A stretch of 64,000 bases of DNA from Limisphaerales bacterium (GCA_024761205.1 JAMASS010000022.1:1-64000), one strand, 5' to 3'. Counted from the stretch's first letter, positions 22,275 to 41,330 are shown. Numbers and translations: made by a program. Notes: a model not told the origin generated them from the letters alone.

Positions 22275-23240
22275 TTAGCCTTGTGACCGATACTGCTTGA
22301 TCACGTCATCAATGATCCCCTCGAGATCGTTTTGTGGCGCATATCCGGTGAATCTCTTCAACTTGCTCAGATCCGGCACCCGTCGGTCCATGTCTTCAAA
22401 ACCCTCGCCATAGGCCTCTGCATAGGGAATGTGAATAATCTCAGAGCCACTCTCCGTTTTCTCCACGATGAGTTTGGCAAGGTGATTCATTGTGACCTCC
22501 TGGTTATTGCCAATATTAAATAGCTCGCCCGGACTTTCTTCATGATCCAGCAGACTGACGAGGGCGGTCACGGCGTCAGCGACGTGGCAGAAACAACGAG
22601 ATTGTTCGCCAGTACCGTAAACAGTAATCGACTGGCCAGCCAAAGCCTGCTGGACAAATCGTGGAATGACCATCCCATATTGTCCCGTCTGCCGGGGGCC
22701 GACGGTGTTAAAGAGTCGTACGAGCACCACGGGCAGGCGAATCTGGTGCCAATAGGCGAGCGCTAAAAACTCACCCAGAGCCTTAGCGGAGGCATACGCC
22801 CAGCGACGATATGAGGGAGGGCCGATGATACTATCGGAATCCTCCGAAAACGGGATACTCGTCGACTTTCCGTAAACTTCGGACGTTGACGTGAGCAACA
22901 CGGGCACTCGATAATGAGCGCAGGTATTGAAGACAACCGATGCACCATAGACGATCGTGCCTACCGTTTCGACCGGACGCTCAATAATGAGTTTAACGCC
23001 CACGGCGGAAGCCAAATGATAGACGCGATCAACGCCCTTAATGCACTCCTCGACGAGGCCCTTGTCAGTAACGCTCCCGCACACCAATCGAAATTGCGGA
23101 TGCTTCTCGAGGTGCTTAATGTTCTGATGCCCACCTGTAGAAAAGTTATCTAATGCGACGACGCTGTCTCCTCGGTCGAGTAGTCGCTCAGACAAATGGG
23201 AACCAATAAAACCGGCTCCTCCTGTAATTAGATATCTCAT
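22275..23240 (-). CDS. NAD-dependent nucleotide-sugar epimerase/dehydratase
   Basis: A short-chain dehydrogenase-type nucleotide-sugar enzyme of 321 residues. ATG at 23240 (MRYLITGGAGFIGSH) gives the nucleotide-binding fold right at the start, so the longer frame from 23324 is rejected. Motifs: GGAGFIG at 7-13, the catalytic YASAK (Tyr-x3-Lys) near 150, preceded by TSTSEVYG, then RLFNTVGPRQ. The C-terminal half binds the sugar nucleotide (GEQSRCFCHVADAV). The sequence is closest in style to UDP-glucuronate decarboxylase or GDP-mannose/UDP-glucose epimerase groups; the exact substrate cannot be read. The CotH-type gene lies upstream on the same strand with a 150-base gap. Confidence 0.85.
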   Translation of the reverse strand: MRYLITGGAGFIGSHLSERLLDRGDSVVALDNFSTGGHQNIKHLEKHPQFRLVCGSVTDKGLVEECIKGVDRVYHLASAVGVKLIIERPVETVGTIVYGASVVFNTCAHYRVPVLLTSTSEVYGKSTSIPFSEDSDSIIGPPSYRRWAYASAKALGEFLALAYWHQIRLPVVLVRLFNTVGPRQTGQYGMVIPRFVQQALAGQSITVYGTGEQSRCFCHVADAVTALVSLLDHEESPGELFNIGNNQEVTMNHLAKLIVEKTESGSEIIHIPYAEAYGEGFEDMDRRVPDLSKLKRFTGYAPQNDLEGIIDDVIKQYRSQG

Positions 23241-23388
23241 CGGTATTTTGGAGTTGCTTCGAACTTCTTGAAGAGAATGATCTTTCACGGACGCAGAAAG
23301 TAATGAAGCGTTGTTGAGACACAATCCCGAATCACGTCTACCTTTTCGACCTGCCCGGGGACATGTGGAGCAAGACCGATTTTCAAAC

Positions 23389-28913: not shown

Positions 28914-30761
28914 GAAGCCTCAAATATCGAAACCGTAATCAATTTCGATCAGGCTGCGGGAAACGTTGGCAACTTTAACGGTAACAACGGCGCCCCGGAT
29001 GATAACATCCCGCAAATTCCGGGCTTCGAAGATAGCACCGAAGGGATTGTCGCCGAGTTCCTTACCTTCCTCGAATTGAGCGAAGGCTTCCATACCTTGG
29101 GTGTGAACAGCGACGACGGCTTCGTCGTCTCGACCGGCCCCTCACTGAAAGATCATGAGTCCGTCGTCTTGGGCTCGTACGAAGGGGCACGTGGCGCAGC
29201 GGATACCTTGTTCGATATCCTGGTTGAAGAGGACGGCATTTACCCGATCCGATTGCTCTGGTACCAAGGCGGCGGCGGCGCCAACGTCGAATTTTTCTCA
29301 GTAACCGACGATGGCGAAAAGGTCCTCATCAATGACCCCAGCCATGCCGAGGCCATCAAGGCCTACCGCACCGGCACCACGCGACCATTCATCAGCGCCT
29401 TCTCTCCTCAAGGAAGGACCCTGACGGATACCCTCGAATACACCGTGAACAACGCCGACATCAATGTCGTCGAGAGCTCGATTCAGCTAACTTTGGACGG
29501 AACAGATGTCACCCCTGAAGTCACCTCGAACGGCGGGGTTATCACGGTAAATTACACCAACCCCGATGGGTTTTTCCTTGCCGGAGATCATCTCGCGATT
29601 CTAACCTACGACGAATCGAGCGATCCTGTCGTCACCCGAACTTTCCGAAATGAGTTCAGCATAGCAAACGGACAAAGCACCGTCCTCCTCGACAACCCAT
29701 TCCTCTATTGGCGCCTGGGCGAAACTGAAGGAGACTCAGCGAACAACGAGATCAGTTCCGCCCATACCGGTGGTTACACCAACAACCCCGGACTAGGCGC
29801 CGAGCGCCTTGTCGTCGGGGATAGCTCTTCAGCGGTGCTGTTTGACGCATCGCAGCAGCACTGGATTGCGCTTGCTAACCACGCTGACATTAACGATCAA
29901 GCGGTGAACAGCGGATGGACCGAGAAAACGGTGGAATTCTGGTTTAAGGCACGAAATCTTCCGAATTCAGATCCAGTCCTCGAAGGCCAACCAATCTCGC
30001 AACGCCAAGTCATCTACGAACAAGGCGGAGCCACGCGCGGTGTCAACGTCTACCTCGTTGGCACGCAAGATGGACCGAATCCGACAGAAGCTGAACTCTG
30101 GTTCAATATCTTGAACCGAGCCGAGACCGCTTGGGGTGGAACCGTTCCGTTCAACGAAGATCAAGGCCTTTCGCCCAACGATGAAGCCATCGCCGTTGGC
30201 ACCGCGATTCAGGCCAACACCCTGTATCATGCCGTGTTAGTCTTTCAAGGGGACGCGGAAGACGGCGGACTTGAAGGCGGGATTACCGGCTATCTCAACG
30301 GAGAACCGTTTGGTGAAGCCACTGGGGCGCATATCTTGTTCGACCACACCGACGGTATCGCCATTGGCCGTCGCAACAGTGAGGTCTCGTTCCATGACAT
30401 GATCATTAACGCGGGTGGCGCGCCGGACATCTTCAACTCTTCCGAGCAATTCTACTACGACGGCTGGCTCGACGAGTTCGCCCTGTATAACGTCGCCTTG
30501 ACCGCCGAACAGGTGAAAGCGCACTACGACGCCGGCCTAGTCGAAGTACCCGCGGACATAGTTGAACCACCGACGCCGCCAATCAGCGGTGGTGGGATGA
30601 TCTTGATCATCCGAGACACGAGTGACATCATCAGCATCATCTACAGCGGCACGCTCAAGAGCGCTGCTACCATTGATGGTCCCTTCGAGGCTATTGCCGG
30701 CGCAATCTCACCGTTTATCGTGGCTTCGGATCAGGAATCTCGCTTCTACATCGCGGACTAA
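28914..30761 (+). pseudogene. 5'-truncated LamG surface protein, in frame behind the DUF3500 stop
   Basis: Coding sequence continues without break from the DUF3500 TAG, in the same frame (ETVINFDQAAGNVGNF), for 615 codons. No start codon exists before conserved domain sequence; the first possible TTG, 29076, lies inside the domain. The first about 190 codons are a PA14-like part (FHTLGVNSDDGF, YQGGGGANVEFFS). Then follow an Ig-like part, a LamG domain (about 260-535; FWFKARNLP, WLDEFALYNVALTAEQV) and the C-terminal module ending SRFYIAD. The N-terminus and signal peptide are missing, so this is either a truncated remnant or expressed only by TAG readthrough as a fusion. It ends with a strong terminator. 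Family members are large secreted surface proteins. Confidence 0.75.
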
Positions 30762-32743: not shown

Positions 32744-34591
32744 CTATTCGGCCATATAAAAATGCGCCCCTGATTGTGGCGTAACGATAAATGGAGAGGT
32801 TACACGAGGAACCTTCGTGAATGGCCTATCGATGGTGGGCGTGCCCTTCAGCGTTCCCGTGTATTCGATAACCAAGGTTCCGTCAGCGCCCCGCCGAATC
32901 GATGTCACACCATTTTGCCCGTTAGGGACAATCGGCGGGGCCAGCGCCCCTGTTGGTAAGGAATACGCGTAGATCATCGCGTCCGCTCGATCAGAAACCC
33001 ACAAGGTCGTGCCATCCGACCAAAGCCCCGCAGGGCTAAGGTTTCCGGCCGAAAAGAGATCATTCATATCATTCACCACATCGCGGCTCTTCGCGGAAAA
33101 ATTGTACGCATAGAGCTTATTATCCTCCCAATCTCCCACCCAAAGTGTCGTCCCATTCGACCACAACCCGCGCACCCGTTGATTCCCAGTAGCTCCAAGA
33201 TCTCGAAAATCTTTCGCCTCATCGTGATTCCCGGTCGCAAGATTGTAGGCATAGATTCGAGCGTCCTGTGAATCCGCCACCCACATCGTTTCGCTGTCCG
33301 ACCACAATCCGGAGGGATGGCGATTCCCAGCACCAAACAAAGAATCAATCTCTTTGCCTGCATCGCGGGTCTTTGTCACTAAATCGTAAGCGAACAATCT
33401 GGCCGTGTGCCAGTCCGCAACCCACATTGTCGTACCATCAGACCACAAACCGGCCGGGTCAAAAGTTTGCTCACCAGCCAAGACGTTGAAATCAATATCG
33501 CTCTCCTTTACACGATCCTTCGATACCAAGTCGTAAGCATATAGCATCCGATCCTCATTGTCAGCCACCCACAACGTCGGGCCGTCCGACCAGATATCGC
33601 TTGGATGCACATTCCCGGCCGTTGCCAGCGTTCTGATGTCTTCCGCAGGTTTCCGGCGGCAATCACTTGAGGCAAAAGGTGATGCTGTGAGGACGGGTAA
33701 CTCGTATACAAAGACCTTTGAAACGCTACGGTCAGAGACCCACAACGTGTTCCCGTTCGACCAAATTCCGTTCGGGTTCAAATTTCCCGCCTCACGCAGT
33801 GATTGATAGTCAATGTCTCGGGCGCCGTCCCGAACGCCCGTGGCCAAGTCATAGGCAAAGAGTTTGCCATTCACCCACCCACCCCAAGGAGTCCAGCGTC
33901 CGGTGTCAGCCACCCACAATGTCGTGCCATTCGACCACAAATCGCGGGGCGTTATGTTGCCGGCCTCAGCCAAGGTCTCAATATCCCTTGCGGGAAGATA
34001 GCTCTTGGTTGCCAGATCGTAGGCGTAAATCTTGTCGTCGCCATCGTCGGCCACCCACACCGTCGTGCCATCGGACCAAACACCCGTCGGGCTTTTATTG
34101 CCCGCCGCTATCAAGGAGTCAAAGTCTTGGGCCGGAAGACGAGCCATCGTCGCCACTTCATAGGCGTAGATCTTGTCGTTAAACTCATCCGTGACCCACA
34201 TGGTCACTCCATCAGACCAAAGCCCTCGAGCACTTCGATTATTAGCCAGTCCGAGAGTGTTGTAATCCTTTTCCCTATCCCTCAAACTAGTCCCCAAATT
34301 GTAAGCGAAGAGTTTGGAAAACAACCAATCGACCACCCACATAGTGCTGCCATCGGACCAAAGCCCCACCGCATTGCCATTCCATTCGGCCCCAGCCAGG
34401 TAATAGGAGAAACGCAGTCGCGCAGTGTTCTCGCCGAGCGGTCTACCATCCCAAGCTTCGACATTGGCGATGTTCGAAGCTAGTTCAGCGGCCTGTGCGC
34501 GTTCGATCGGCAAGCGCAGGGTCACAGTCATCGCAATGAATAGAAGCAGCGATACTTTCTTATTAGAATACCTCAAAATCAATCTATCCAT
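32744..34591 (-). CDS. Secreted protein with ten WSDG repeats
   Basis: An exported protein of 615 residues. The signal peptide is about 1-34 (VSLLLFIAMTVTLRL). Then ten tandem repeats of about 50 residues follow, each with the core GLWSDGTTMWVAD, a spacer and KIYAYDLAT, then a linker such as ARDIETLAEAGN. The repeat suggests beta-propeller or solenoid blades. One repeat has a Trp/Gly-rich insert (GRWTPWGGWVNG). The protein ends in the module common to this window (TLVIEYTGTLK...SPFIV...FYMAE). Such WSDG repeats occur in large surface proteins of marine bacteria. It is probably a surface-exposed or secreted binding protein; the ligand is unknown. Confidence 0.85.
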   Translation of the reverse strand: MDRLILRYSNKKVSLLLFIAMTVTLRLPIERAQAAELASNIANVEAWDGRPLGENTARLRFSYYLAGAEWNGNAVGLWSDGSTMWVVDWLFSKLFAYNLGTSLRDREKDYNTLGLANNRSARGLWSDGVTMWVTDEFNDKIYAYEVATMARLPAQDFDSLIAAGNKSPTGVWSDGTTVWVADDGDDKIYAYDLATKSYLPARDIETLAEAGNITPRDLWSNGTTLWVADTGRWTPWGGWVNGKLFAYDLATGVRDGARDIDYQSLREAGNLNPNGIWSNGNTLWVSDRSVSKVFVYELPVLTASPFASSDCRRKPAEDIRTLATAGNVHPSDIWSDGPTLWVADNEDRMLYAYDLVSKDRVKESDIDFNVLAGEQTFDPAGLWSDGTTMWVADWHTARLFAYDLVTKTRDAGKEIDSLFGAGNRHPSGLWSDSETMWVADSQDARIYAYNLATGNHDEAKDFRDLGATGNQRVRGLWSNGTTLWVGDWEDNKLYAYNFSAKSRDVVNDMNDLFSAGNLSPAGLWSDGTTLWVSDRADAMIYAYSLPTGALAPPIVPNGQNGVTSIRRGADGTLVIEYTGTLKGTPTIDRPFTKVPRVTSPFIVTPQSGAHFYMAE

Positions 34592-34737: not shown

Positions 34738-35784
34738 TTACTGAGCTTGGAAAACCCATTCCCAAAGGGCCTCATCCTGAAATCCAGTGAGCCCTACGAA
34801 TGGTGTGCTCAGACTCTCAAATTTCCGATCATTCTCAAACGCTCCAAGGATCTCGTCTGAAAGGTCCTCAAGAGGAATGCGATAAGCCTGAAGCAAGGCC
34901 GGAAACTCATCGGCCGCCAGACCCGCCATAATGTAACTGCCGGTCCGTGAGAAATGGGAGCGGTCATCACACTGATTACCGCAGACCGTGACAAACGTGG
35001 TCGCACTTTCTCCGTACCGTTTGTACAAGTCAGAACTCCGTTTGTTTAAATCAATGACTTGAACGCGTTCTTGGGCACTGAGCTCGAACATGCTCTCACG
35101 TCGCTTGGAGAGCTTGTTGATCAAGTTGCCGGCGTCGTCAAATATCCGGCGGGAGACTGGCGTGACCAGCATCGGTATCGCTCCGATCGCCCGGACCGAC
35201 GCCACGATCGCCCGAAGGTTGGTTTCGAAAACTTCTTCGGACAAACTATTGTCATCGTCAATGTGCCCAAATTGCATCATCACAACATGCGGCTTCACGA
35301 TTTCCACTTGCTTAATACTGTTGTTCTCAACAAAGCGCACCGTGTCGACACCCGGGCCCGCCTGATTCACAAAAACGACGTTCTCCTGAAAGAAGTCGCC
35401 CAATACTTGCCCCCAGCCATGAAACTGCTGCGATAGAAACGAAAGATCGGCAACAGTCGAGTCACCGATAATCACAATGCGGAGATCCGTCTCATTAATA
35501 TTGAAGTCCGGAACCAATTGCACGAAGCCATGAGAATCATTGGGGAATATCCAAGGGATAGAGTCCGAAGGCAGAAAAGTATCGCCGAACGGTTGCCAAG
35601 TGGACAGATCAGTCGAGAGGAGGCTCTTATAAGCACGCCCCGCCTCAACCGGAAACTTAAAGGAGACCCCGGACACGGCCTGAAACGTTGCCACCTGCGC
35701 CTTCCCTGTCCAACCACAACACAAAGCCAATCCGCAAAGCACCACAAATTTCCACTCTCCCCACTTTTGATTCAATTTCTGCAT
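34738..35784 (-). CDS. SGNH/GDSL esterase, rhamnogalacturonan acetylesterase-like
   Basis: A secreted SGNH hydrolase of 348 residues, third gene of the MBOAT operon. ATG at 35784 gives a signal peptide (FVVLCGLALCCGWTGKAQ); the longer frame from 35823 is less likely. Residues about 25-95 are the FYRL-type module (LSTDLSTWQPFG). The catalytic domain starts with block I LRIVIIGDSTVADLS (Ser nucleophile), Gly in HGWGQVL, block III MQFGHID (where GHND is usual), and block V DRSHFSRTGSYIMAGL (Asp and His). This set matches the CE12 rhamnogalacturonan acetylesterase group. Expected reaction: removal of acetyl from a polysaccharide. It starts 45 bases after the stop of the preceding SGNH gene. Its position beside an acyltransferase suggests editing or recycling of the same acyl groups. 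Confidence 0.85.
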   Translation of the reverse strand: MQKLNQKWGEWKFVVLCGLALCCGWTGKAQVATFQAVSGVSFKFPVEAGRAYKSLLSTDLSTWQPFGDTFLPSDSIPWIFPNDSHGFVQLVPDFNINETDLRIVIIGDSTVADLSFLSQQFHGWGQVLGDFFQENVVFVNQAGPGVDTVRFVENNSIKQVEIVKPHVVMMQFGHIDDDNSLSEEVFETNLRAIVASVRAIGAIPMLVTPVSRRIFDDAGNLINKLSKRRESMFELSAQERVQVIDLNKRSSDLYKRYGESATTFVTVCGNQCDDRSHFSRTGSYIMAGLAADEFPALLQAYRIPLEDLSDEILGAFENDRKFESLSTPFVGLTGFQDEALWEWVFQAQ

Positions 35785-35829
35785 AACATCGTTCGTAACA
35801 TTCTGCACCGCAAGCTCATCCAAAGAAAG

Positions 35830-36849
35830 TCACAACCCCAACGGTCCCTTGCCCCTGTCGACTTTATCATCCAAGATCAACTGCTCATATAACCGCTCCG
35901 TGAAAGCCCCTCTCGCCTCTGGCTTGAGATGCGTTTTCGTCGCGAATTGATCATCGGGCAGTGTCGGAGGCAGTCCACTTAGCGGTATCGCGCCCAAGAA
36001 CTTTTTGACCAATTCCGCAAGCACTTTTTGGTAGGTCCGCGAAAAATCTCCCTTCGGAAAGGACTCCGGCAGAGGGGTCAATCCAATGTAAAGTGCGGTT
36101 GTCGTGGGCACCGCATTCGCAAATACGAAAACGCCTCTTTCATGCGCTGCGGCGACACGGTAATCACTGCTCCCTTTCAAGTCGTCGGGTTTAAGAATCC
36201 TGGGATCCAAAACGGAACCGTTATGATTCTCCATGTAGCGATACATGTCCGTCGTAAAACCATACTTCTCACCAAACCGCCCATACAGCGGCCGCGGCAA
36301 CCGACCGATCAGCCTCCCCTCGACCAAGTGCACACCCAGCACCTTCCGAAGGTTTAATGCCTTATCCACACCATAAAAATGATCGTTCCCCGACAAATAG
36401 TGGTCGAGAGCAGCCAGGTGAGCGGGCGACGACGAATCTTTCCACACAAAGTCAGGGTGAACCAACATTACAACCTTGTGGGGAGGAGTCTCAGTTGCGG
36501 CCAAATGATTCTTTAGCAGGGTCGAGAAGGCTTCCAAATTCAGGTAACTCAATGTTCCCAGGTTCAACACCTCACCGCCCATTCGCTCAGCAAGCAACGG
36601 CGTATCGACATCCATCAAGCAGGACGAGTCCCCCAACAACAGTGCCGCCATCGGCGTTTCTTCCCGGCTTGCGTCGGCTTGCCGAATGATGACCGTCCGA
36701 TCGACATCCAACATAGGCCGAGGTGGAGGGAACATCCCCGCAGCCACCCCCAAGCGGACCAACCCACCCACCAACAAAGCCGCTACCAGTGGCAACCCGA
36801 CTGCCCGCAAGACCTCGGAAAACTGCAACTCATATTGGTGACTGTCCAT
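35830..36849 (-). CDS. Membrane-anchored SGNH-like (AlgJ/DltD-type) partner of MBOAT acyltransferase
   Basis: A protein of 339 residues with one N-terminal transmembrane segment (VGLPLVAALLVGGLVRLGVAAGM, written here as about residues 15-37). The extracytoplasmic part has an SGNH-like start (ALLLGDSSCLMDVDTPLLAE; Ser at about residue 74), a VMLVHPDFVWK strand and a C-terminal HLKPEARGAFTERL with the conserved His. This pattern matches AlgJ/AlgX/DltD-like proteins that transfer acyl groups outside the membrane, using the MBOAT protein as the channel. ATG at 36849 lies 13 bases after the MBOAT stop; the longer frame from 36918 would overlap it. The catalytic Asp-x-x-His pair is not fully evident, so the assignment rests on fold motif and context. 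Confidence 0.75.
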   Translation of the reverse strand: MDSHQYELQFSEVLRAVGLPLVAALLVGGLVRLGVAAGMFPPPRPMLDVDRTVIIRQADASREETPMAALLLGDSSCLMDVDTPLLAERMGGEVLNLGTLSYLNLEAFSTLLKNHLAATETPPHKVVMLVHPDFVWKDSSSPAHLAALDHYLSGNDHFYGVDKALNLRKVLGVHLVEGRLIGRLPRPLYGRFGEKYGFTTDMYRYMENHNGSVLDPRILKPDDLKGSSDYRVAAAHERGVFVFANAVPTTTALYIGLTPLPESFPKGDFSRTYQKVLAELVKKFLGAIPLSGLPPTLPDDQFATKTHLKPEARGAFTERLYEQLILDDKVDRGKGPLGL

Positions 36850-36862
36850 CGCCCGCTCCACT

Positions 36863-38248
36863 TCAAAACTGGAAATAGATAAAAGGGGTGCCCTTGGCCA
36901 CCCCAAAAACTGCGACACAATAGAGCATCACACTCTGCAGCGCATACCGCCAGACAGCCGGTAAACGAAGCGCCGGCATAAGATCCCCGCTCTTCTTCTG
37001 CCACAATTGCATCAGCACCAAAGGAACCAAAAATACCGACACATTAAGACCATAACTAGTGAACCAGTCCGGAAACTCCGGCAACCAGATATGGACGGTA
37101 TAATTTCGTATCTGCTCAAAAGACTGCGCCCGAAAAAGCATCCAACCATAAAAAACGACCGCCATCGTCACCATCCAACCCAAAAGCGCCCTCAGGGATC
37201 CTTCGGGCGAATAGTTCCGAAAAATTCCCAGCATCACGCCATGCCAGAGGCCCCAAAGAATGAAATTCCAGCCAGCTCCATGCCAAAGTCCAGCCAACAA
37301 CATCGTTAGGAGCAAGCTTAAAATGTTTCTGGCAGCTCCCCGCCGATTACCACCCAAGGGGATATACACGTAGTCCCGAAACCAGGTTGACAAACTAATA
37401 TGCCAGCGTCGCCAAAAATCACTCGGCGTTACCGCGAAGTACGGCAAATTAAAGTTGAGCATCAACTGAAAACCCAACATCGACGCCACGCCTCGGGCAA
37501 TGTCCGAATAGCCGGAAAAGTCACAATAGATTTGGACGCCAAAGGCCAGGGTTGCCAGCGCGATGACCGGCCCCTTGGCAGTCGGGTCCGTGTAGACCAT
37601 ATCCACAAGAGGCCCCATATTATCAGCGATCACGACCTTTTTAAACAACCCCCAAACGATCAACCAAACCCCCATCTCCGTGCCGCTGACGGTAATCCGT
37701 CGCGCTGACGTGAATTGCGGCAGTAAACTTGCCGCGCGCTCGATCGGCCCGGCCACGAGCTGAGGAAAAAAAGACACATACGCGAGAAAGGCAACAATAT
37801 CGCGCGTCGGTTTGACCCGACCGCGAAAGACATCAATGGTATAGCTAAGTCTCTGGAAGGTGTAAAATGAAATGCCCACCGGAAGAATCACATTCAGCAT
37901 GGGAACGTTCGCCTGGATTCCCAGAGCGCTGAGCCCCTGAAAGACGTTCTCCCAAAAGAAATCGAAATACTTGAAAAACCCCAAGACACCAAGATTGACC
38001 AGCAGGCTGAACGCTAACAACCGTCGCCGTTTCGCTCCCGTAGCGTTCTCCATGAGGGATCCGACAAAAAAATCCGCCACGCTGGGCAACAGGAGGAGCG
38101 ACAAGAACCGCCAGTCCCACCAACCGTAGAAAAAGTAACTAGCCGCAACAATCAAACGATTCCGATTTACCAAACTCCCTCGCACCAAGAAAAAGAGCAG
38201 CAGGAACCCCGTAAGAAACCAAAAGAACGCTGTGGAATTGAAATACAT
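36863..38248 (-). CDS. MBOAT-family membrane O-acyltransferase (AlgI-like)
   Basis: A polytopic membrane protein of 461 residues (ATG at 38248, MYFNSTAFFWFLTGF) with roughly ten membrane segments. Family hallmarks: SYFFYGWWDWRFL, FFKYFDFF, LPVGISFYTFQRLSYTIDV, FFPQLVAGPIERA, DFSGYSDIARG, FNLPYFAVTPSDFWRRWHIS and FRDYVYIPLGGNR. The active His region is LLAGLWHGAGWNFILWG. AlgI-like MBOATs move an acyl (usually acetyl) group from a cytoplasmic donor to an acceptor on the outside. It heads a three-gene operon with an AlgJ/DltD-like partner and an esterase. Divergent from the pseudopilin gene across about 325 bases. The acceptor polymer is unknown since no alginate or teichoic acid genes are nearby. 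Confidence 0.93.
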   Translation of the reverse strand: MYFNSTAFFWFLTGFLLLFFLVRGSLVNRNRLIVAASYFFYGWWDWRFLSLLLLPSVADFFVGSLMENATGAKRRRLLAFSLLVNLGVLGFFKYFDFFWENVFQGLSALGIQANVPMLNVILPVGISFYTFQRLSYTIDVFRGRVKPTRDIVAFLAYVSFFPQLVAGPIERAASLLPQFTSARRITVSGTEMGVWLIVWGLFKKVVIADNMGPLVDMVYTDPTAKGPVIALATLAFGVQIYCDFSGYSDIARGVASMLGFQLMLNFNLPYFAVTPSDFWRRWHISLSTWFRDYVYIPLGGNRRGAARNILSLLLTMLLAGLWHGAGWNFILWGLWHGVMLGIFRNYSPEGSLRALLGWMVTMAVVFYGWMLFRAQSFEQIRNYTVHIWLPEFPDWFTSYGLNVSVFLVPLVLMQLWQKKSGDLMPALRLPAVWRYALQSVMLYCVAVFGVAKGTPFIYFQF

Positions 38249-38574: not shown

Positions 38575-39270
38575 GTGAAAACATTAGAAGCACAACACTC
38601 GCCGCACGTGCAGGGAAGACTTAAAGCGACAACTTTGGCATTCACGCTAATTGAGCTCTTGGTTGTCATTGCGATTATCGCAATCCTCGCCGGGATGCTC
38701 CTCCCCGCCCTCTCCAAGGCCAAGGAGAAAGCCAAGCAAACCCAATGCATCGGCAACCTCAAACAAGCCGGTCTAGCTGTGATACTTTACACCGATGATC
38801 ATGAAGGTTGGATGCAGATTATTGATCCTCTGAACAACAAATTCACCTGGGGTGAAATCATTAGTTCGAATCAGAGCTTGGGACGCTCTAAGATCTTCCT
38901 CTGCCCCTCCTATCCCCCTCGCGTTTTTACCAATTGGTTTCAGACCTACGGCATCTGGTCGGACCCCCCGGAGGAATTGCGCCGAGGTGAATACTTCGAA
39001 GATCTCAGCTTCAACAATATCCGAAATCCATCCGAGTTCACCCACCTGGCGGATACCACGAGCCAAGGTCGATTAGGTATCGGTGCCCAACAATTCCATT
39101 CCTTCCACAAACAAGAGGAAAAAGAAGAAGTCCATGCTCGCCACAACAACAAGGCAGACATTTGGTTTGCCGATGGCCATGTGGAGGGACTCACACCGAC
39201 CCGGCTCGAAGATTTGGGAATCGTCCCGCTCGTCGGACAAGACACGATTCCCGCTTACTTCGCACCATGA
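38575..39270 (+). CDS. Type II/IV pseudopilin-like protein (H-X9-DG family)
   Basis: A prepilin-type protein of 231 residues from a GTG start. The N-terminus has the prepilin cleavage/methylation motif ([19 protein letters not shown], about 22-40), followed by [18 protein letters not shown]. The C-terminal part ends in the H-X9-DG motif (His, nine residues, then FADGHVE, about 190-206), as in the very numerous PVC-type pseudopilins. Residues between form a globular domain. These proteins are thought to be secreted pseudopilins of a type II-like apparatus; no secretion genes accompany it here. It overlaps the next gene by four bases (ATGA), so the two are co-translated and probably work together. 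Confidence 0.9.
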
Positions 39271-39968
39271 ACAAAGCCAAACCTTGGCTTGCAGCCGGAC
39301 TGTTCCTGCTGGCAGCCCTCCTCTTCTTCCGACTCTATCTGAAATCGACCGAGGAAACGAGCGCGGCACTGGATTCACGACAGCGGGCGCTCCTGGCACT
39401 TGGAGAACATCTAGCACAGAAACAGTTTGGCAGTTGTGCCCTCGTCCTCTCCAATCCCTTCACCCAGAAACCAGGACAACCAAAGGAGATTCAAAAATTC
39501 GAGAACGCTGGCATCCGTGGCCTTGAGCAAGGTCTTCCGGATGCGACCCAAATCAAAATCGTCTTCCCAAAGATCAAACCCGAGTACCAGGAAAATCCAC
39601 CACTCGCAGTCATTCCTCAAAACATTAAAACGCCGCTCAGCTTCCTGATCGATGCCACATCCATTGACCAAATCGCCGCAAGTCATACGGACTGCCAGCT
39701 CTTGGTGAGCCTCATCGGTTTGCCCCTAGGTGTGGAAAAACTGAAAATTTGGCAACCGCAAAACCCGTTCCAATTCGCCCTCTTACTGCCCGACCTCCGG
39801 ATTATCGGCACAAAAGCCAAAGCAGTTGAAGCATTCAAGCACGGTAAAATCACAGCCGCTGTCGTCACAGAATCAGAATCCGACGAACCGCTCATTATCG
39901 ACGCTGAGAATGTTCAAGACATCCTCTCGTCACGTCCCAACCTCCTCGGATTTCGCCGCAGCCGCTAG
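39267..39968 (+). CDS. Single-pass membrane protein of unknown function, paired with pseudopilin
   Basis: A 233-residue protein starting at ATG 39267 inside the stop of the pseudopilin gene. One N-terminal transmembrane helix ([19 protein letters not shown], about 7-25) is followed by a globular domain with a mixed alpha-beta pattern ([45 protein letters not shown]). I do not recognise a family. A substrate-handling or assembly role in step with the pseudopilin is an inference from the overlap. The upstream frame from 39162 lies within the pseudopilin gene and is not used. Confidence 0.75.
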
Positions 39969-40177: not shown

Positions 40178-41330
40178 TCAATCCCCGCCCGCCGGCACGA
40201 GCCGGAAGAACCACCTCTCACCCTCGTTAGGCAGACGCACCACGCCGTCGGAAACAGCCAACGGCATCCAAGGACCCTCCACCGAATCCGCCCATTGCAA
40301 CATGAACTCAAGCTCGGCCGGCGGCACAGGAATCGGCGGCGGCTCAATCGAACGGCCCGTCTGCCGGGTCGTAATAAATCACTTTGGGCTTAAAAAAGCC
40401 GTAAAAAAAGTAATCGAGCTGGGAAAGATCGAAACCCCGTGGCACCCGCAATGCCCGAATAGGATTGTCCTCAAGCTCCAACCCGAAGAGCCTTTTGAAG
40501 GCGATTACCACGAGAAACTGCAATGTCTCAGTGAGACTCCACGAAAGATTCAACGTCCTCAGACTCGCCAAGCCCTCGGGCAGCGTCAGACTCTCCAGGT
40601 AACTGTGCGAAAGATCCAGCTCCTCCAGACTCGTCAAGCCCTCGGGCAGCGTCAGACTCCTCAGAATGTTGCACGAAAGATCCAACTCCTCCAGATTCGT
40701 CAAGCCTTCGGGCAAGGTCAGGCTCCTCAGGTGATTGTACGAAAGCTCCAACTCCTCCAGATTCGTCATGTCTTCGGGCAGCGTCAGACTCCTCAGGCTG
40801 TTAACCGAAAGCTCCAACTCCTCCAAACTCGTCAAGCCTTCGGGCAGCATCAGGCTCCTCAGGTGATTGTACGAAAGATCCAACGACTCCAAACTCGTCA
40901 TGTCTTCGGGCAGCGTCAGGCTCCTCAGGTGATTGTACGAAAGATCCAACGACTCCAAACTCGTCATGTCTTCGGGCAGCGTCAGGCTCTCCAGGTTGTA
41001 ATTGTACGAAAGCTCCAACGACTCCAGACTCGTCAAGCCCTCGGGCAAGGTCAGGCTCCTCAGGCTGCGATTGCTCGTAAGACGCAACCTCTCCAAGCTC
41101 GTCAAACCTTCGGGCAGCGTCAGGCTCCTCAGGCTGCGGTTGTTCTGAAGATTCAACGTCCTCAGATTCGTCCAGCCTTTGCTGAGGGTGACGCTGGTTA
41201 ACCTTTGATCGGACAAATCTAGTTGCGTCGTGTCCTTGGGGTAGCGGAGGGTTTCGGAGCTTCCGTTTAACCGCACGAAGGTGACGGACACTCCGTCAGA
41301 TGGCTGAGTGCAGGCGTTTCGAGTTTTCAC
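40178..41330 (-). pseudogene. Leucine-rich-repeat protein gene with a 3' frameshift
   Basis: From a GTG at 41330, 328 codons encode ten leucine-rich repeats of 22-23 residues (core SLTLPEGLTSLEELDLSYN). The DNA repeats are 66-69 bases and nearly identical; two neighbouring copies around 40860-40990 match almost perfectly. The frame stops at 40344 with DPADGPFD, but one extra G in GACGGGCCG hides a continuation. The other frame reads GRSIEPPPIPVPPAELEFML and then QWADSVEGPWMPLAV, WFFRLVPAGGD, ending at 40178. That tail is the FYRL-type module common in this window. The gene also lacks a signal peptide, so the 5' end may be truncated too. The G-run shift could be an assembly error. Role: probably a surface protein. 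Confidence 0.8.

Follow-up and report, generated by a model that had tools for sequence, protein, structure and literature searches.

The polymers that MBOAT-SGNH pairs decorate include alginate, cellulose, peptidoglycan and secondary wall polymers. In PatA the tyrosine of an FXYXXF motif is auto-acetylated from acetyl-CoA, and the acetyl group is then handed to PatB (PMC12148441). Such an acyl-tyrosine shuttle has been proposed for MBOAT-SGNH pairs generally and has been demonstrated, only recently, for PatA (PMC12148441). In SGNH proteins the side chain of the block III Asn stabilises the oxyanion, and placing Ala at this position abolished the activity of SaOatA (PMC9487903). The same Asn is absent or unused in the transferases PatB1 and XOAT1 and also in the SASA esterases (PMC9487903, PMC12148441), a sialate-esterase family that hydrolyses without it (PMC9487903). 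Replacement of the block II Gly by Ser or Asn marks PatB and pneumococcal OatA, and several superfamily O-acetyltransferases show an altered oxyanion hole or hydrophobic walls at block III or the active site (PMC9487903, PMC12148441). Among the papers searched, none joined MBOAT, SGNH and Verrucomicrobia, and there was nothing specific on MBOAT proteins with pilins or with Verrucomicrobia.

Gene order around the MBOAT gene

The window, a stretch of 64,000 nucleotides from a Limisphaerales bacterium, carries an MBOAT gene (gene 1), a gene for a membrane-anchored SGNH-like protein (gene 2, product SGNH2) and a gene for a secreted esterase-like protein (gene 3) in succession (Table 1). The preliminary description had placed these three genes with 13 bases between the first two and 45 bases between the second and third, and the window sequence bears out both the positions and the gaps. 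A gene for a propeller-repeat protein lies 146 bases downstream of gene 3 on the same strand, and upstream of gene 1 is a divergent pair, c2 and c3, whose reading frames overlap by 4 bases. Consensus scans for promoters and terminators returned sites no more numerous than in shuffled sequences, and operon status is therefore taken from spacing and strand alone. The operon has no synthase or acceptor genes as neighbours, and a Pfam scan of the larger ORFs in the window turned up a single NAD-dependent sugar epimerase/dehydratase (22275-23324) and did not detect any polysaccharide synthase.

Table 1. Features of the locus; positions are counted from the first nucleotide of the window
Feature	Position	Strand	Basis
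Gene 1, MBOAT membrane O-acyltransferase, 461 aa	36863..38248	-	PF03062 E=1.7e-27; DltB 6bug, 8jem closest solved structures
C-terminal FIYFQF, FXYXXF acyl-shuttle motif with candidate acyl-Tyr	36866..36883	-	Sequence; 60/60 complete homologues
Gene 2, SGNH2, membrane-anchored SGNH-like partner, 339 aa	35830..36849	-	Homologue alignments, AF2 model, hydropathy
Gene 3, secreted GDST/SGNH esterase-like protein, 348 aa, propeller-linked clade 'P'	34738..35784	-	Lipase_GDSL_2, YxiM 2o14, tree
Gene 3 block III, GHID for GHND (Ile at the oxyanion-hole Asn position)	35257..35268	-	Alignment of 40 homologues
Secreted propeller-repeat protein, 615 aa, travels with gene 3	32744..34591	-	Esterase-then-propeller order in six genomes
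c2, divergently placed pilin-like protein	38575..39270	+	Prepilin N-terminus, DUF1559-type N-terminal match (Pfam/NCBIfam); conserved neighbour
c3, membrane-anchored protein, no Pfam family	39267..39968	+	40/196 genomes of the order; AF2 model and Foldseek

Two further features of the surroundings can be recorded here. The propeller protein and a LamG protein (29076-30761) are otherwise unrelated, but both are secreted, and at the C-terminus each has the same type of module, roughly 55-70 residues long (YSGTL/YTGTL...PF...SPFIV...FY.A), which is perhaps a sorting or attachment tag. A leucine-rich-repeat protein whose SLTLPEGLTSLEEL repeats are nearly identical is encoded at 40344-41330, and the opposite strand there is open over 299 codons.

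The MBOAT-SGNH2 pair and its companions

Gene 1 matches PF03062 at 97 bits against a cut-off of 27 in Pfam, and scores 150 bits with the NCBIfam DltB model TIGR04091, under that model's cut-off of 375. It is the sole intact MBOAT gene of this 4.9-Mb genome; a second match, on contig C65 (G000:C65:13463-13843), is a remnant broken by internal stops. All 60 complete MBOAT homologues end in F[IL]YFQF. With its Pfam domain, its C-terminal hexapeptide and an adjacent partner, gene 1 belongs with the SGNH-coupled bacterial MBOATs of AlgI/PatA type.

The partner is less easily classified. SGNH2 has a single N-terminal transmembrane helix by hydropathy, and gave no confident match to a Pfam or NCBIfam family. 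Both G73-D74-S75 and H307 are invariant among 23 aligned homologues and in a further alignment of 12, which supplies the block I GDS Ser and the block V His that characterise the SGNH superfamily. The block III Asn is absent, with HP in the block III region (the position being judged from sequence only), and residue 304, three before the His, is not Asp, the best conserved acid nearby being D299 (19/23). The AF2 model is only moderately confident (pLDDT 78.6). In the PDB, the sole coherent set of high-probability matches to it consists of SGNH hydrolases, platelet-activating factor acetylhydrolase among them (E about 0.01, probability 0.99). Comparison with the ALGX family, in the form of the ALGX proteins of the second locus type described below (type B), gave an hhalign probability of 2%, and the single short stretch that aligned sets THL of gene 2 opposite DTHW of ALGX; there is no match to the AlgX/AlgJ profile (PF16822), and the motif reads xTHL instead of DTHW. 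Because the motif and the fold match come without ALGX profile similarity, and with no Asp three residues before the His, we term gene 2 SGNH-like only, an assignment that relies on the motif together with a weak fold match and that is neither AlgJ- nor DltD-like. The AlgJ/DltD-like label of the preliminary description is accordingly withdrawn, and a plain AlgJ/DltD homologue is rejected, as no sequence relationship to AlgX, AlgJ or DltD was detected.

Homologues of gene 2 occur in 41 of the 196 genomes of the order and in 8/11 of the family. MBOAT lies directly upstream in 38 of the 39 loci with enough sequence, the window included; in the odd locus (L060) some 2.3 kb separates the two genes, and a further two gene 2 loci, which end at contig edges, were left out of the 39. 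This adjacency, together with the FXYXXF motif in every complete homologue, upholds the proposal made at the outset that an MBOAT and an SGNH partner form an acylation pair. Outside the class, a profile search across the phylum recovered full-length gene 2 from three genomes, where it is once more accompanied by MBOAT and c3 but not by gene 3.

Across the order, in Limisphaerales-type MAGs of the Verrucomicrobiota, c2 and c3 are kept beside the MBOAT-SGNH2 pair, usually facing it, and c3 is within 8 kb of gene 2 in 24/41 loci. The pilin-like c2 is conserved over its whole length. The c3 product has one transmembrane helix, and its AF2 model (pLDDT 91.4) resembles type I periplasmic sugar-binding proteins (Foldseek E=3e-5, with TM-scores of only about 0.45), from which we infer that c3 may present or sense a glycan. 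A scan with a c3 bait over one genome per species (about 85,000 species) returned 21 loci, all Verrucomicrobiota MAGs by title, although the bait was a single nine-residue pattern from a 13-sequence subset of the alignment and tests absence elsewhere weakly. Genes 1 and 2 are thus solid new members of the MBOAT-SGNH kind, with a partner of unrecognised family and two constant companions.

Other copies of c3 stand beside an MBOAT that is more distantly related (about 42% identical) and is partnered by a true ALGX protein (PF16822, E=1e-36); these are the type B loci. In seven c3 loci (L115-L119, L139, L141) an esterase-like gene comes directly after c3, with MBOAT-ALGX adjacent in six, and at L144, on the same contig as L119, all five genes are colinear in the order MBOAT-ALGX-c2-c3-esterase. 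One locus (L122/L140) is without the esterase, and others end at contig edges. In the papers searched we found no description of an MBOAT-ALGX unit with c2, c3 and an Asn-less esterase-like gene.

The third gene: linkage and active site

Gene 3 matches Lipase_GDSL_2 (E=2.8e-8) and YxiM (2o14, E=2e-10). Each of the four genomes of the genus has an esterase-like gene in third place, 38-82 bases after gene 2, but in the three members other than the window genome this gene is of another esterase subfamily and shares about 24-28% identity with gene 3. The closest relatives of gene 3 (48-58%) are instead in G007 and four g2 genomes, and because each of these precedes a propeller gene, the conserved unit is esterase plus propeller, which stands directly behind MBOAT-SGNH2 in the window genome only. 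In G007 and G004 this unit is away from MBOAT, and in the g2 genomes G003 and G005 it lies on the far side of c3-c2, upstream of c3 and a few kb from MBOAT. There is no esterase match within 8 kb at 35 of the 41 MBOAT-SGNH2 loci.

The preliminary description had made its three-gene system depend on the trio being conserved in relatives, and for the strict trio this fails: the orthologous trio is confined to the window genome, and most relatives are without the third gene. What survives is a looser tie between esterase-like genes and the MBOAT unit. Among the 70 esterase matches in the order, 11 are no more than 8 kb away from c3 or gene 2, for which chance would give about 0.3% per gene pair. 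Since independent arrangements recur, the link outlasts the loss of the strict trio, and our data support an esterase-like gene that is non-randomly linked to the MBOAT unit.

These observations bear directly on one alternative, namely that gene 3 makes up, with the propeller gene, a self-contained surface or polysaccharide-utilisation pair, which landed behind MBOAT-SGNH2 by chance and has no function in common with it. The displaced positions of the unit in G007, G004, G003 and G005, and the restriction of the orthologous trio to the window genome, count in favour of this alternative. It does not sit well with the 11 linked cases, with the unit of G003 and G005, which, though displaced, is still within a few kb of c3-c2-MBOAT, or with the same position in the rest of the genus holding a different, also Asn-less, esterase-like gene, and we consider it distinctly unlikely.

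The active-site residues provide a second line of argument. In an alignment of 40 homologues gene 3 keeps the GDST of block I, the Gly-His of block III and a D-x-x-H-type block V. Block III reads GHND in the canonical CE12-like relatives of the order, 16/16 of which keep the Asn and none of which is linked to the MBOAT unit. It reads GHID or GHIE in clade P, to which gene 3 belongs, GQID in the same-genus clade at position three, and GMID, GHAD, GRVD, GWID, GWVD, GLID or GAVD in the c3-linked clade, so that the Asn is lost in all three linked clades. In several proteins of the c3-linked (MBOAT-ALGX) clade another residue (N, C, A, L or F) also takes the place of the block II Gly. In an unrooted tree the 16 Asn-bearing sequences are split from 23 Asn-less ones by a branch with support 100/99, and a single loss of the Asn is the simplest reading of these sequences, though not a proven one. 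Asn-less genes that are not linked to the MBOAT unit also exist, for example on C56 of the window genome and at L128 and L129.

An ordinary CE12 enzyme is rejected for gene 3 on account of the GHID sequence. The earlier reading as a CE12-like acetylesterase that edits acetyl groups finds partial support in the GDST, the D-x-x-H and the relation to YxiM, but the loss of the block III Asn makes the esterase call doubtful. On that reading, the extracellular polymer acylated by way of genes 1 and 2 would also be the substrate of gene 3, a secreted deacetylase trimming or recycling its acetyl groups. Kinship with the CE12-like GDST group and YxiM, an N-terminus that resembles an export signal, and the recurrence of an esterase-like gene in third place throughout the genus would all fit. 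However, the residue at the Asn position is Ile in gene 3 and mostly I, V or A in the linked clades, block II is altered in several MBOAT-ALGX-linked proteins, and the relatives that do keep the Asn are those without a link to the MBOAT unit, which together leave this possibility looking rather doubtful. To judge from the residues, the Asn-less pattern favours an altered chemistry, whether that of a transferase, an unusual esterase or a binding protein. As the clade has lost the oxyanion-hole Asn and kept the Ser and His, a second transferase or relay seems somewhat more likely for gene 3 than a hydrolase, notwithstanding that the loss could equally signify a dead or differently organised esterase.

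A proposed acylation unit and its relation to described systems

We propose, with about an even chance of being right, that genes 1 and 2 are an envelope MBOAT-SGNH acylation unit to which c2 and c3 belong, and that gene 3 is an accessory secreted enzyme that handles acyl groups. Gene order, conservation, motifs and clade structure are as observed above; the identity of the acyl group, the acceptor, the order of transfer and every enzymatic activity are what we infer. The MBOAT would take an acyl group from the cytoplasm, probably acetyl from acetyl-CoA, and load it onto the Tyr of its C-terminal FIYFQF; Ser75 of SGNH2 would receive it in the periplasm, and SGNH2 would then hand it on to an extracytoplasmic polymer, with or without gene 3 as an intermediary. 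The pilin-like c2 and the sugar-binding-protein-like c3 may serve to present the acceptor or to guide it. Gene 3 could act as a second transferase or relay, as AlgX does beside AlgI-AlgJ or, in the comparison system WssH-WssI-WssF (PMC4148444), as WssF does beside WssH-WssI. Membership of gene 3 in the unit is favoured by the separate arrangements in which esterase-like genes occur, at position three, upstream of c3 with the propeller gene, and directly after c3; against it, the clade of gene 3 pairs with a propeller gene and not with MBOAT in five other genomes. Because it is absent from most MBOAT-SGNH2 loci, gene 3 would not be needed for the basic acylation chemistry.

A bolder suggestion, which we regard as fairly improbable, sees in the Asn-less GDST proteins a new type of secreted O-acyltransferase or acyl relay. 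Together with c2, c3 and one or the other of two unrelated SGNH partners, they would form a machine for envelope acylation in the Verrucomicrobiota, with a glycan handled by a pilin-type fibre as its possible acceptor. The locus matters as a conserved pair in a little-studied order, with a partner outside any Pfam family and two constant companions, and the recurring Asn-less GDST proteins offer a clean test of an esterase fold that is shifting to transfer or losing activity.

Among described systems, alginate acetylation by AlgI-AlgJ-AlgX(-AlgF) is alike in outline, with an MBOAT, a membrane-anchored SGNH protein and a second secreted SGNH protein. It differs in that SGNH2 is not of the ALGX family, gene 3 is of GDST type and not AlgX, no AlgF or alginate synthase was found in the window, and c2 and c3 are extra. 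Peptidoglycan O-acetylation by PatA-PatB likewise combines an MBOAT that has a C-terminal acyl-Tyr motif with a separate SGNH partner, but SGNH2 has no DUF459/PatB match and lacks the block III Asn that PatB keeps. In the DltB-DltX-DltD system of D-alanylation, DltB provides the best solved-structure relatives of gene 1, although here the motif is fused to the MBOAT, whereas there it is on the DltX microprotein; gene 1 does not reach the DltB cut-off, and SGNH2 has no DltD match. The CE12 rhamnogalacturonan acetylesterases and YxiM resemble gene 3 in the GDST of block I, the Gly-His of block III and the D-x-x-H of block V, and differ from it at GHID and in its clade, which is separate from the canonical GHND relatives of the order. 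In the type B MBOAT-ALGX units, as in the window locus, the MBOAT has c2-c3 and an Asn-less esterase-like gene for neighbours; these units differ from that locus in their partner, a true ALGX member, and in the esterase, which comes after c3.
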